The notes under the pieces: generated by a model
What the model saw: the letters and a program-made list of their open reading frames with translations, nothing else
Told to the model about the DNA's origin: nothing
Databases searched by the model: none
Origin: Tieghemostelium lacteum
Taxonomy: Eukaryota; Evosea; Eumycetozoa; Dictyosteliales; Raperosteliaceae
Assembly (NCBI GenBank): GCA_001606155.1
Contig: LODT01000035.1
Coordinates: 124,001 to 188,000, forward strand
Length of the DNA stretch: 64,000 nt
Direction: 5' to 3'
In this document: positions 8,810-63,848 of the stretch, piece by piece
Layout of the letters: the number at the start of each line of letters is the position of its first letter
How positions within the stretch are numbered: the stretch's first letter is position 1
Translations under genes and position numbers: made by a program

Positions 8810-8953
8810 TTAACAATGTAGGAGTTGAACATCCTTCCTAGATGGGGATTACTAAATGAATAGCAAAAATTTATTTGCCTAATATCTATTTTTTGCAGTT
8901 GCTACAGGTATAGGTTCTTTGTTTTTAAGTATATTCAAATTAAATCCCATTTA

Positions 8954-9030
8954 ATCTAACAATTCATTTTCAATTATATAGCAAATTTGTTGTGGAATAA
9001 AAAATTATAATTGAAAATGAATTGTTAGAT
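8954..9030. repeat. Perfect inverted repeat, 25-bp arms, 27-base spacer
   Basis: Left arm 8954-8978 (starts ATCTAACAATTCATTTTC) and right arm 9006-9030 are exact reverse complements over 25 bases. The spacer 8979-9005 is 27 bases. Pairing stops sharply at both ends. A transcript would fold into a long, fully paired stem. No terminal duplication or transposase is near. Two further repeats in this window (60361-60441 and 60704-60770) have the same 27-base spacer. Confidence 0.9.
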
Positions 9031-9459
9031 GATATTATTTTATTCAAACAATTTTAATATAAAAATTAAATAAATTTTCTCATTTTGGTTAAAATAAACA
9101 ATTAAAATCATAAATTATTTTATTTTCTTTATTCTATTTAATCAAATATACAATTCTTTTATAAAAGTTATTTGAGTACCTTATAGTATTCACTTTTCTA
9201 TACTAAATAATTTTTATTACAGAGGATTAATAGGGGTTTTTCATTTGATTTTAGTTGAATTTATAAAGATGTCAATTGAACATCAGCTCAAATATCTACT
9301 GAGAAATATTTGCTTCTTATTAGTCAATCAATCAATATAGATAGGTGCTGGGCAGGCATTCTAAACTCAAATCTTTTGGATTCAACATAGGTCCTGTGGC
9401 AACACCATGCATAAAATTTGCTTTTCAAATTTTCGATGTGATTTGTTAAAATATAAACT

Positions 9460-58246: not shown

Positions 58247-59815
58247 TTATATAGGTGGTAATGGAAGTTTAGATCTTATAGCATTTATATAAAACTTATT
58301 AAAATCTAAAAAATTTTGGGAATTGTAGAGGAAATGGTCGGATTGGAAATATTGAAATCTTAAGCTACCAAATAGATGGCGTATGTCTACTAGGTAACTT
58401 TGGAGAGTTGGATGTTTTTCAAAGATTTCCATGAGAAGATAGTCAATAAATGATAACCAACTTGAATTTGAATCGTATAATGTGAATTCACAATGAAGTA
58501 GGGATTGGTTGAGTGAAAGTGTTTGTTTGATGTTTGTTAGGTGTTGGTCTGAAACAGCAATAGGGTCATCTACTTTAATATATAGAAACTGTAGTGTACG
58601 ACTGTGTTCTAAATATTGTAATAGCAGTGGTGTTATAATATCATACATATCAAGTGAGATTGACTGAAGGTTTTGGTATCTCGATAACCCAGAATCCAAA
58701 GGAAGAAGTTCTAAATCGATACAATGGCTATTCAATTTGATAGTTTTCAAAGCACTATTAGTGTGGGGAATTAGAAAACTATTTGAAAATATTTTTTTAA
58801 GTGTGGTGTTCTCTTTGAACATATACATTATCAATTCATTTGATAATGCATTGGTATCAAATCTAGTCAGTTGATTCAGAGGATCTTTTAGATAATTTAT
58901 AATAAGTGGAGTAAAGACAGGAATTAGACCTTGTCCATAGAAATTCAAATGCAAATTACACAAAGATTTCATCTTTAAAAGTGGCTCAAATAGCTCTGTT
59001 TCTCTATTTTGTGCAATATAGATTCCAGGTATAGTTTTAGGTAATACACGAGAGTCAATGAAACCATTAGATTTCAATTTTAGTGTGTGTAATCCAGGTA
59101 CATGTTCTAGTTCATTCATAAACCCTATAGCTTGACCCAAATCTTGAAACACTGGTGCATATAAAACAAGTTTAGTCAAATTCTTTAGTTTATCTACATT
59201 TGTAATATAAAATGTTGAAAACCCCAAAACCAAAGTCTCCAAAGCACATCCATTTCCACCACTTATAAAATGGTCACAAATAAGTTTTTCATTTTGTGAT
59301 ATCATACCACTAGAAGGTGTCCATTGTCTAATAATCTTAATATGCTTCAATTGACTTCTATCAACATTGGACACCCTGCTAAATGTATAGCTGCCAAGTG
59401 TAATGGTATCTACTATAGTGTAATCAGTACTCAAATGTATATAATCACTATTATCTAGTGTATAGGTAATATCTAGTTCATATACATTATTGATTACTTG
59501 TAATGTAATTTGAGTACCTGATTGGTGCAAAGTGTATGCATTTATCTTTGGTTGCTTCATTAGTGAATATTCACTATGAAATGGTATGGTTTCAGGTATC
59601 ACTTTTAGTAGATAGTCTCTGATAAAAGGTATAGTTGTTCTGATTCTATTAAACCAATGTTTTGATACAAAAATCAAATTATACCTCCACCAATACACTT
59701 GATTTTCTTTAAATTGTCTATTTTTAAATTTTACATTATCTAACCTCCATGTATATTCCAAAAGTACAAATTGTATTTGAATTGGTATTTCTCTACCAAA
59801 ATTAATTAATCTCAT
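58247..59815 (-). CDS. F-box/LRR-like dictyostelid protein, 522 aa
   Basis: Single exon. It begins MRLINFGREIPIQIQFVLLEY and reaches WWRYNLIFVSKHWFNRIRTT, where V-S-K-H-W takes the place of the VCKxW core seen in the two relatives in this window. The rest is diverged leucine-rich sequence (LETLVLGFSTFYI, LKNLTKLVLYAPVF, LHTLKLKSNGF, LQSISLDMYDI, LQFLYIKVDDP). It lacks catalytic motifs and a signal peptide. Members of this family are numerous and vary fast in dictyostelids. Function unknown. Confidence 0.72.
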   Translation of the reverse strand: MRLINFGREIPIQIQFVLLEYTWRLDNVKFKNRQFKENQVYWWRYNLIFVSKHWFNRIRTTIPFIRDYLLKVIPETIPFHSEYSLMKQPKINAYTLHQSGTQITLQVINNVYELDITYTLDNSDYIHLSTDYTIVDTITLGSYTFSRVSNVDRSQLKHIKIIRQWTPSSGMISQNEKLICDHFISGGNGCALETLVLGFSTFYITNVDKLKNLTKLVLYAPVFQDLGQAIGFMNELEHVPGLHTLKLKSNGFIDSRVLPKTIPGIYIAQNRETELFEPLLKMKSLCNLHLNFYGQGLIPVFTPLIINYLKDPLNQLTRFDTNALSNELIMYMFKENTTLKKIFSNSFLIPHTNSALKTIKLNSHCIDLELLPLDSGLSRYQNLQSISLDMYDIITPLLLQYLEHSRTLQFLYIKVDDPIAVSDQHLTNIKQTLSLNQSLLHCEFTLYDSNSSWLSFIDYLLMEIFEKHPTLQSYLVDIRHLFGSLRFQYFQSDHFLYNSQNFLDFNKFYINAIRSKLPLPPI

Positions 59816-60247
59816 TGGTTTTTTGAATTTTTATAAAATAAAAAAACAGATTTTTTGTTATTATATTAATGTTACATTACACGTCCAAAATAGCCACAAT
59901 AAGTTTTATCTTTATAGGTTCATCTTTAGTTTATTTTAAATTATTATTTAAATATTTAAATATAGGATCAATGTGCATACAAATTTACGAATTCACATAT
60001 TTATTTATCACTGTAAAAATATTATAATTTAAAAATTTTATTTTATCACTTTAAAAATAAATATTATTATTTAAAAATTCAATATAGAGGTGTGGAAGAC
60101 TAAAATACATAGTACCTAGCGCGCGTGACATTCTTCCACAATTGCCGTTTTTTTTTTTTTAAGTGCCACAATGAGTCTAGAGTCTTTTAAAATTTTGGTT
60201 TTTTTATAAAGAAATATTCGACGTGATAATAACAAAAAATAATAATA
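59816..60247. other. Intergenic stretch with GC-rich island
   Basis: 432 bases. At 60117-60128 CTAGCGCGCGTG is strikingly GC-rich for this genome. It lies in the loop of a weak inverted repeat: TGTGGAAGA at about 60092 and TCTTCCACA at about 60133, 9-bp arms. A poly(T) run follows (about 60149-60160). TATAAA at about 60206 and the AATAATAATG start context of the next open frame look like a promoter. Confidence 0.45.
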
Positions 60248-60335
60248 ATGTCTTCAAAACAAACTAAAAAAGATAGAGATATTAAAGAAATAATTGAAAA
60301 TGCAAGAAACATTTTTCATAAAATAGTAAATTTTT

Positions 60336-60441
60336 TCAAACAAGAGTATTTAACTTTAAATATTGATACAATCGTTGAAACTGTATCGATATTTAAAGTT
60401 AAATACTCTTGTTTGATACAGTTTCAACGATTGTATCAATA
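60336..60441. repeat. Interleaved perfect inverted repeats A-B-A'-B'
   Basis: A is 60336-60363 and A' 60389-60416, exact reverse complements over 28 bases, spacer 25. B is 60361-60387 and B' 60415-60441, exact over 27 bases, spacer 27. The arms alternate (A, B, A', B'), overlapping by two or three bases at each join, so the two long stems exclude each other in DNA, or could pair as a pseudoknot in RNA. Put differently, bases 60389-60440 are the reverse complement of 60336-60387 after swapping its halves. No mismatches were found on reading base by base. Confidence 0.93.
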
Positions 60442-60703
60442 AGCTTAGTGAGATTCTTATCATGGCCTAGGCAAGGTGCATTACAGAGGATTTATCATTA
60501 GTGGCATTGTAAGTAAGCTAAATGATTACATTAACAATTGCATACACTGTAAAAGAGGAAATAACAGTAACGTAAAATTGGTTTTTGAAAAAGAACTATC
60601 AACATTAATGGAAACAAAATCAATACAAAAAGATGAGTTATTCTTGAAATCTCTAAGAAAAAAAGCAAAAAGGAAATTAAAACCAGAAACTCAATTGACA
60701 TTC

Positions 60704-60770
60704 ATAGAAATTGGAATACAGGGAAATTGATCCAAAAAGGAACAGGGAAACCCTGTATTCCAATTTCTAT
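60704..60770. repeat. Perfect inverted repeat, 20-bp arms, 27-base spacer
   Basis: Left arm 60704-60723 (ATAGAAATTGGAATACAGGG) and right arm 60751-60770 are exact reverse complements. The spacer 60724-60750 is 27 bases. It lies 260 bases after the interleaved pair, inside the same fragmented open frames, and interrupts the coding-like sequence. Confidence 0.92.
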
Positions 60771-60943: not shown

Positions 60944-62705
60944 TTATTTTTGATCATAATAATTTTGATTTGTAAAAGTAACCCAATCGTAATCCCAATA
61001 TGAGATTAAACCGAGATGGGTTGTATTCCAATCTCTAGAATTCCAATCAAAAGGTGGAAGATTGTGGGATGTTGTTGGACCTGAGATGGCATATACTTCA
61101 CCACGTTTAAATAAAGAATAGGATGTTAATTTGGTATCTAAACCACCACCAGCACTTGGACCTGGATCTGCAAGATCACCACGAGCTGCTATAGCATACC
61201 ATGGGTTACCTTGAGACAATGGGTCATTCTTAAAATCGTTATATCTCATAAAGTATTTTGCATCTTCAATGGTATGAATATCGTTAGCCTGTCTTCTGAA
61301 TATCTGACCTCTTGGTGCACCTTGATAGGTGTATTCACTAACATTTAAACTATTGTAACCAGAGATATTATAGATATCATAATAAAATGGAATATTGTAT
61401 CCTGGAGTATACCCAGTTCTCAGAACTGGAGTGACATCAGAGTATTCAACATATCCTGGGATTTGTTCGAGAAGGTATAAACCACCTTCATTTATACCTT
61501 GGTATGGAGTAAATCTCTTGTAGTCTAGAATCTGGTACTGGTTATTGTAAGTTCCAGAATTGTATCTAGCAAATGTCTGACACCATTCCAAAGGACTTGT
61601 AGACATTCTGTTGGCATTCATGATTCTCAACCAGTATAACACAGATTGTGGGTTAATGAGATGATAGAGGTCATTAGTTACTAAAGAGTTAGTGGTCTCT
61701 AAAACCACCAACCCAGTATCCATTTGATAGAAGTCATCGATAGATACAACCACACCAGGATACGATGAAAAAAGTATAGATTTTGTAACCACACCACTTT
61801 CTTGAGAAAATTCAAAATTATAGGATTTGAATATTCTAATACTCATATAGTAGTCGTCAAATGTAGTGTGTGCAGCATAGATTTCCGATAGATCGTCCGT
61901 GAGTTTAACCATACTTGTACAATGTTGATTCTTATGGAAATAGTTTTCGAGTTGTTCTCTAGTTGTTATATTTATACTACTTAGATTGAGTGCTGGAATG
62001 AGTTCAAATAAGTCACCGTACATGTTGAGTATGAATATATCGTCTACTCCAATCTTTAGTTGAGCAATATCAGGGTTGTCACTCTGAGATGCTGCATCGT
62101 TGTAGCCTAGAACCATTGCATTGACTTGGTCCAATGTCAATGAGATACCTGTCCAATACTGTTGATCTTCAAGTGATACACCAGACAAAGTGGAATTGAC
62201 AATAGCTGATTTCATAAATGTGATAGTATCGAATATCCATTGACTTAAATCCTCAGGTATAGAGGTACTGTTGAATTGGTTGCTTAGATAGTTGTATCTG
62301 CTGTTATATATCATCTCATAGGTTAGATATCCTTCAAGATATCCAGCTGCAGATGCCTGTAAACTATCATTAAAACTAGAACTGGTATTAATAGATAGAT
62401 ATGCCCATCCATTATACTTTTGTTCACCTTGATATGATGCAATTGCAACTGCATTCTCTTGAATTCCTATAATAATGTATATATTCAATTAATAACTCAA
62501 TTCAAATAAATTTTATAAAATTTGCATGTTGTCTGTTGTTTTTACCATTTGTAATTTTGAATTGACCATCAACATTGAAAATAGAGTATTTTGCAATATA
62601 ATCATCTTGTATATTCATTTTAAATTGAGTTTCAGCATTTTTCTTTGAGTCCACAGTAGATAATATTACTGCTATAAAAACAAGTGATAAGAATAATCTA
62701 TACAT
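60944..62705 (-). CDS. Phospholipase B-like protein (2 exons)
   Basis: Exons 62546-62705 and 60944-62466 (GTAAAA donor, TTATAG acceptor, phase 1), 560 residues. Secreted or lysosomal lipid-cleaving amidase/phospholipase of the Ntn-hydrolase fold (laminA/PLBD family; D. discoideum PlbA was the founding amoebal enzyme). A signal peptide (MYRLFLSLVFIAVILS) starts it. The nucleophile site is Cys236 in HCTSMVKL, followed by the AAHTTFDDYY strand, as in PLBD HCSxLxKL...AHSSW. Conserved C-terminal parts include QVLRTGYTPGYN-type (seen as VLRTGYTPGY), IFRRQANDI, MRYNDFKNDPLS and AARGDL. Many N-glycosylation sites. The precursor is normally cut just before the nucleophile Cys. Confidence 0.93.
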
Positions 62706-63146: not shown

Positions 63147-63848
63147 TTAAGCCATGATGAATTTAACTCTGTGTGGTAATCTGATGTTAGATGGTTTTCT
63201 GTGATTGAAATGTAATTTCATTAGATTGCTTGGATTGTAACATGATTCTGGAAGTTGGAAGAGATAGTCTCTGAATCCATTTTCATACATGTAAATGTTA
63301 CTTAGAGTAACTTGTTCATTACCAGATTGGGTAACTGACATTGGAGCACAGTTGACTGCATCCCAAAGAACAATAGTATCATTTGAGAGTAATTCTTGAA
63401 CCTCAATAACACCGAGAGTAACTTCACCAATATTAACAAATCCAGTTGGTAAACCAGTTGGAATATTAGTACCTGAATATTCAAAACAAGTATCAACACC
63501 ATTACCATCAGTTGCAATTACATATTGAGTATTATTTCCACTGAATTCAATAGTGGTACCAGTGTAGTTTTGACCATTAGTGGATACTTCAAATGATGTA
63601 TACAAACGACCACCTTCATAATCAATTGATAAATAGGTTGCTAATTTCATTTTTACAAAATTTCAATATTAGTACTATTTATATATATTTTTCAAATATT
63701 TCAAATACATACATTCTACAAAACCATCATTTCCAGGTCCATAAGAAACAGTTCCTATGTATCCAGAAAAACCAGTTGGAGTTGGACAATTACTAGCACC
63801 AACAATGGAGGCAATCAAGCAAAGAGATAAGATAATTAAGTATTTCAT
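63147..63848 (-). CDS. Secreted protein of unknown function (2 exons)
   Basis: Exons 63713-63848 and 63147-63640 (GTATGT donor, GAAATTAG acceptor, phase 1), 209 residues. The signal peptide reads MKYLIILSLCLIASIVGAS, then NCPTPTGFSGYIGTVSYGPG. The mature protein is beta-rich with even-spaced Gly/Thr/Asn and four or five Cys (CPTP, DTCFEY, NCAPM, ESCYNP), plus glycosylation sites (NYTG, NNTQ, SNDTI). No transmembrane segment. The end is basic (HFNHRKPSNIRLPHRVKF). Small secreted beta-proteins of this kind are common in dictyostelids; I do not recognise the family. The Met at 63650, often taken as start, lies inside the intron. Confidence 0.75.

Follow-up and report, generated by a model that had tools for sequence, protein, structure and literature searches.

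In the four-point description of template switching, events of the '4 before 1' class produce direct plus inverted repeats, and an enrichment of template switches in the vicinity of AT-rich and poly(dA:dT) tracts is reported (Walker et al. 2021, PMC7954356). In yeast, template switching is reported to invert the spacers of inverted repeats, but only where the arms exceed 9 bp (Abraham and Hazkani-Covo 2021, PMC8604942). Foldback insertions, also described in yeast, started from an imperfect inverted repeat of 10 bp around a 41-nt loop, and complex insertions of the same study combined two fragments that came from a single locus and lay in inverted orientation (Yu et al. 2024, PMC11724301). Small inverted triplications (SIT) have spacers of about 30 bp and junctions of about 6 bp (Lei et al. 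2026, PMC13334657). These statements and the comparisons made below refer to excerpts of the four reports. A limited search of the literature on Dictyostelium together with template switching or inverted repeats revealed no such dictyostelid event among titles and the opening lines of abstracts, which leaves its absence unproven.

The locus described here occupies positions 60336-60441 of the window, that is, of the whole 64-kb stretch of DNA that was analysed (30% GC), and consists of two inverted repeats whose arms alternate in the order A-B-A'-B'. Arm A (60336-60363, plus strand) pairs exactly over 28 nt with its reverse complement A' (60389-60416, minus strand) across a spacer of 25 nt, while arm B (60361-60387, plus strand) pairs exactly over 27 nt with its reverse complement B' (60415-60441, minus strand) across a spacer of 27 nt, a value set by the length of A'. 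A overlaps B by 3 nt, and A' overlaps B' by 2 nt. An earlier note on this DNA had reported alternating inverted repeats of 27-28 nt, each exact over its full length, and had described the two long stems as mutually exclusive; the coordinates confirm the former statement, and their interleaving bears out the latter. Inward of A/A', 60364-60370 pairs with 60382-60388, with a single T/G mismatch at 60364/60388, and in a second inverted-repeat search the A arms reached 43 nt at 91% identity, B/B' being unchanged.

This arrangement can be reduced to one putative insertion of 50 nt at 60392-60441. The reverse complement of this segment is found in the doubled sequence of 60338-60387, which means that the insert repeats the neighbouring 50 nt as exactly one turn in inverted orientation. 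The earlier note had derived the second half of the locus by rotating the first 52 bases and taking the reverse complement; the inverted rotation is indeed exact, but the unit is 50 nt long (60338-60387) rather than 52. The one-turn relation holds in four of the nine registers tested (shifts from -3 to 0, corresponding to insertion starts from 60389 to 60392) and fails in the other five. Since ATA is present at both ends, the boundaries of the insertion can slide by up to 3 nt leftward, to 60389-60438. The GC content of the insert is 24%, the same as that of the non-coding rest of the window.

Immediately to the left of the insertion stands TGTATCGATA (q', 60382-60391, plus strand), which is complementary at 9 of 10 nt to TATTGATACA (q, 60361-60370, plus strand); q and q' form an imperfect 10-nt inverted repeat around an 11-nt loop, ATCGTTGAAAC (60371-60381, plus strand). 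In the reconstruction proposed below, q would be the left half of the priming quasi-palindrome and q' the primer end of the first switch. Within the insert, TTGATACA (60413-60420, plus strand) is an 8-nt direct copy of 60363-60370 at the candidate TTGA return junction, and it is followed by GTTTCAACGAT (60421-60431, minus strand), the exact reverse complement of the loop at 60371-60381. The loop is exactly inverted, the left arms TTGATACA are identical, and the right arms match at all but 1 of 10 nt, as expected of spacer inversion. Imperfect 10-nt inverted repeats (at most one mismatch, loop of 3-59 nt) number 778 in the 64 kb, or about 12 per kb, a count that includes overlapping positions and low-complexity pairs. 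Because such pairs are common, the presence of q/q' by itself is weak evidence, and what gives it weight is that it lies precisely at the insertion edge. Matches of 2-4 nt at the junctions are likewise weak evidence: with non-coding base frequencies assumed, the chance per trial is about 0.01 for a match of 4 nt and about 0.10 for one of 2 nt. All of these features, namely the inverted repeats, the pairing of q with q', the shared letters at the junctions and the one-turn relation, are read directly from the sequence.

Judging from these sequence relations, the A-B-A'-B' layout is very probably a scar left when DNA synthesis switched templates locally. It most likely represents a mutation of an ordinary kind whose outcome is unusually intricate, and no function needs to be invoked for it. 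The new sequence is a reverse-complement copy of a source located within a few tens of nucleotides, as expected of a template switch, and an imperfect inverted repeat is present at the switch point, as expected of foldback primed by a quasi-palindrome. One contiguous reverse-complement fragment (2->3) does not explain the whole change, for which two fragments are required. The locus is assigned to compound template switching rather than to one four-point event because the reverse complement of AB reads B'A' and does not contain A'B' as one contiguous piece; no single four-point event yields A-B-A'-B', and a compound history is required.

We infer the ancestral state, the order of events, the strand and the polymerase events as follows. 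The ancestor would have carried q (TATTGATACA) and, after an interval of 11 nt, q' (TGTATCGATA or TGTATCAATA), and at the empty site either CTGTATCGATA or TGTATCAATA would have been followed directly by AGCTTAG. In the first switch, the growing 3' end at q' would fold back, or jump to the sister strand, and pair with q, from where copying would run backwards from about 60360 to 60336, yielding A'. Two continuations could be proposed. In a two-step variant, the TTGA at the end of A' would re-pair with TTGA at 60363-60366, the start of B, and B would be recopied before synthesis entered AGCTTAG, producing A-B-A'-B by a '4-before-1' event, while the 11-nt loop of one of the B copies would be inverted, simultaneously or later, by spacer inversion between inverted repeats. 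Alternatively, in a one-event variant, the end would jump from 60336 to 60387 on the same template by means of 2 nt (GA/TC), copy B' and return through ATA, so as to cover the 50-nt unit in exactly one turn. The one-event variant explains all 50 of the 50 inserted letters, although its middle junction is weaker. The two-step variant, whose return junction has TTGA in common on both sides, explains 49 of 50, namely 25 of 25 at 60392-60416 (the reverse complement of 60336-60360) and 24 of 25 at 60417-60441. Its only miss, at 60438, is the site of the difference between q and q', and would vanish if the inversion took the arm along, or if the first copy was inverted and position 60388 changed later. 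From one sequence the two variants are inseparable, and each relies on template-switch behaviour already described in the literature (PMC7954356, PMC8604942, PMC11724301, PMC13334657).

Compared with the '4 before 1' class (PMC7954356), the locus shows the same local combination of an inverted and a direct copy, seen as one larger insertion in an AT-rich setting. However, a single event of this class gives A-B-A'-B, whereas the second B here carries an inverted loop, and therefore a second pair of switches or a later inversion is required; besides, the present locus is read from one sequence and its ancestor is deduced. Spacer inversion as reported in yeast (PMC8604942) likewise reverses a loop and leaves the arms nearly unchanged, but the loop is 11 nt long here, compared with 2-5 substitutions per inverted spacer in yeast genes, and its inversion is deduced from two copies within one sequence. 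The resemblance to foldback inverted insertions at breaks (PMC11724301) lies in the priming by a 10-nt imperfect inverted repeat, the copying of neighbouring sequence and the size of the insert, since 50 nt is inside the reported range of 10 to >150 bp; the differences are the length of the loop, 11 versus 41 nt, and the second segment, which one foldback leaves unexplained. Those insertions arise at breaks, whereas the likeness found here is one of sequence and implies neither a break nor a particular enzyme. SIT (PMC13334657) share with the locus strand-to-strand switching, direct and inverted copies, and short spacers, but they consist of direct, inverted and direct copies of the same segment (148/160/148 bp), while here A and B occur twice each, one copy per orientation. 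The direct-inverted-direct layout is absent from 60330-60450, where the longest exact direct repeat is 8 nt. As a mutation scar, the locus is a clean and readable case of compound template switching in an apparent dictyostelid, an affiliation already assumed in the earlier note and in agreement with the 30% GC of the window and an Ependymin_amoebozoa match at 63147-63650; it is a further case of a known mutation kind and probably no gene switch.

The inserted letters could also have come from a DNA circle of 50 bp that was cut out of A-B, or copied from it, and integrated beside its source in the opposite orientation, much as the earlier note had imagined. This route is formally equivalent to the insertion, the insert being exactly one turn of the unit, and TC at 60336-60337 and 60386-60387 could close the circle. 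However, a duplex DNA circle of 50 bp is mechanically unlikely, and both its reinsertion beside the source and its opening at q would be coincidences that local foldback at q/q' predicts. Because the flanking imperfect 10-nt inverted repeat can prime a local template switch, the circle is unnecessary, and we consider it very improbable. A tandem duplication followed by inversion was also considered and rejected: the single inversions of A-B-A-B that were worked out give A-B-B'-A' or A-A'-B'-B and not A-B-A'-B'. The perfect inverted repeats and the ATA flanking the insert at both ends would suit a tiny foldback or MITE-like mobile element; nevertheless, all inserted letters can be supplied by the adjacent 50 nt, a 28-nt probe (spanning A and the start of B, up to 3 mismatches) finds just its own two copies in the 64-kb window, and a mobile origin appears exceedingly improbable. 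Neither a 27-nt piece of A searched against prokaryotic genome contigs nor a 23-nt piece of B searched against viral contigs gave any match, which says little, since these collections are not expected to include this organism. In vitro polymerases generate foldback chimeras of the same kind, and a chimeric library molecule could have entered the assembly consensus. Such a molecule would, as we reason, have to dominate the consensus; moreover, similar repeats are present at two further places in the window, and mismatches in the arms (at 60388, and in the extended arms at 8949-9035, which are 93% identical) hint at age. An artefact of this kind seems very unlikely, and local template switching is preferred to all of these routes.

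The repeat lies at the end of a 64-codon open reading frame (60248-60442, plus strand), closed by a TAA at 60440-60442 that straddles the end of B'. The earlier description of a gene-like open frame ended by the repeat agrees with the position of this stop codon, while its 'gene-like' part is weakly favoured by GC content at codon positions and opposed by the lack of a Pfam match for the frame or for its first 41 codons. Over the 144 nt before the insert, GC content falls from 0.29 at the first codon position to 0.21 at the second and 0.12 at the third; this gradient is coding-like, but 144 nt are too short to decide; overall, the frame before the insertion has 21% GC, the same as the upstream intergenic stretch (21%). 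Joined without the 50 nt, the frame would run for 67 codons; no long open frame is therefore cut short by the insertion.

The same layout had been proposed to be a two-state switch, an attenuator or a pseudoknot. As a functional RNA or DNA device (attenuator, riboswitch-like element or pseudoknot) controlling the frame at 60248-60442, it could draw on the coding-like GC pattern of the 144 nt and on the stems themselves, which exclude each other and differ little in stability: at both 22 and 37 °C the predicted minimum of either strand is the A/A' fold, which exceeds the best B/B' fold in stability by just 2.3-3.8 kcal/mol. Bistability of the RNA is thus thermodynamically possible in the folding model. 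Yet formal bistability is already implied by the layout, since any A-B-A'-B' arrangement must have it. On the plus strand, a prefix ending at 60414, before B', already folds 33 pairs of the A/A' stem, and because these pairs form before B' is transcribed, B/B' would need to displace A/A'; the DNA strand is likewise predicted to fold into A/A'. The frame lacks a Pfam match and terminates within the repeat, removal of the insert would lengthen it by only 3 codons, and a search of the whole window with Rfam 15 at gathering score gave no matches. With 33 A/A' pairs preceding B' transcription and no Rfam match, the proposal is left unsupported, and a functional switch appears most improbable.

A different role would be that the A/A' hairpin is, or is becoming, a small-RNA precursor, whose near-perfect stem Dicer would cut. 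This reading is compatible with template switching, because template switching could have created the hairpin; RNA hairpins can arise in this way according to an excerpted report (PMC8794818). The hairpin comprises 81 nt, with 34 Watson-Crick pairs, one wobble pair and an 11-nt loop. The folding z-score of 60320-60460 is -9.57, and none of 200 shuffled sequences was as stable. In the excerpt consulted on dictyostelid and other amoebozoan miRNAs (PMC11014262), dictyostelid pre-miRNAs are most often 75-125 nt long and mostly intergenic, and the A/A' hairpin, stable and of suitable size, falls within this commonest range. The same source suggests 0-1 mismatch in the duplex among the marks of new miRNAs, but in precursors of >200 nt, compared with 81 nt here. 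It also describes miRNAs as less AT-rich than their surroundings, whereas the insert matches the non-coding rest of the window in GC content (24% each). The absence of Rfam matches in the window further argues against the small-RNA reading, and any recent foldback would look alike. If transcribed, the A/A' hairpin could, by its modelled fold, feed the RNAi machinery; a precursor role is nevertheless quite unlikely. A wider conjecture, itself quite unlikely, is that in this AT-rich amoeba short quasi-palindromes support compound foldback copying that favours spacers of about 25-27 nt and keeps making near-perfect hairpins in non-coding DNA, some of them becoming Dicer substrates, and that the locus would be a newborn small-RNA gene before decay. 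As a single locus it is a curiosity and not a new system; if such scars were frequent in dictyostelids, the fast turnover of their miRNA hairpins would have a concrete source in them.

Exact inverted repeats were counted across the window with spacers of up to 200 nt, low-complexity arms being removed from data and controls alike. Six repeats of at least 12 nt were found, compared with 2.6 expected under an order-3 Markov model. Four of them are at least 20 nt long, against none in 40 order-3 Markov windows (longest simulated repeat 16 nt) and none in 200 windows simulated from non-coding composition. These four are A/A', B/B', a 20-nt repeat at 60704-60770 and a 25-nt repeat at 8954-9030, the last two resembling the locus in style and lending weight to template switching; the two shorter ones, at positions 1939 (14 nt) and 48975 (13 nt), may be chance products. 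None of the six loci overlaps an open reading frame of at least 150 aa, and 31% of the window lies outside such frames, which are not gene models, so that introns and short exons may be present at the repeat loci.

The second repeat of foldback type, at 60704-60770, has exact 20-nt arms (60704-60723 and 60751-60770) separated by 27 nt. A hairpin, ACAGGG-AAA-CCCTGT (60742-60756, 3-nt loop), is present at its inner edge and could possibly be its seed, and the direct repeat ACAGGGAAA is found at the same locus, which, from its sequence, looks like a simpler scar of one single template switch. The repeat at 8949-9035, outside long open reading frames, is exact over 25 nt (8954-9030), extends to 30 nt at 93% identity around a 27-nt spacer and is probably an older foldback scar. 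The spacer is exactly 27 nt in three of the four repeats of at least 20 nt (8954-9030, 60361-60441 and 60704-60770) and 25 nt in the fourth, a number of cases too small for conclusions. That two scars of foldback type fall within about 435 bp (60336-60770) would be in keeping with unconstrained DNA.

Downstream of the insert, a frame at 60476-60730 gave a sub-threshold match to the Pfam family Integrase_H2C2 (E 0.02, 15.5 bits versus a cut-off of 25.5), which covers the C-terminal half of the family with its C-x2-C region; for the longer frame around it, with X at stop codons, the values were E 0.056 and 14 bits. One could guess that this stretch is a decayed integrase-like remnant. A search of viral contigs with this frame gave 63 pattern-matching stretches and no relatives at E 1e-3, and a tRNA scan returned no hits. 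Upstream of the 60248-60442 frame, TGTGGAAGA and TCTTCCACA form a 9-nt inverted repeat at 60091-60140, with a spacer containing GCGCGCG amid AT-rich DNA; this repeat may have arisen by chance. The locus lies between a 522-aa gene at 58247-59815 and, on the minus strand, a phospholipase B-like open reading frame at 60944-62488 (Pfam E 1.1e-152); a further minus-strand neighbour is an open reading frame at 63147-63650 that matches Ependymin_amoebozoa (E 9.6e-19).
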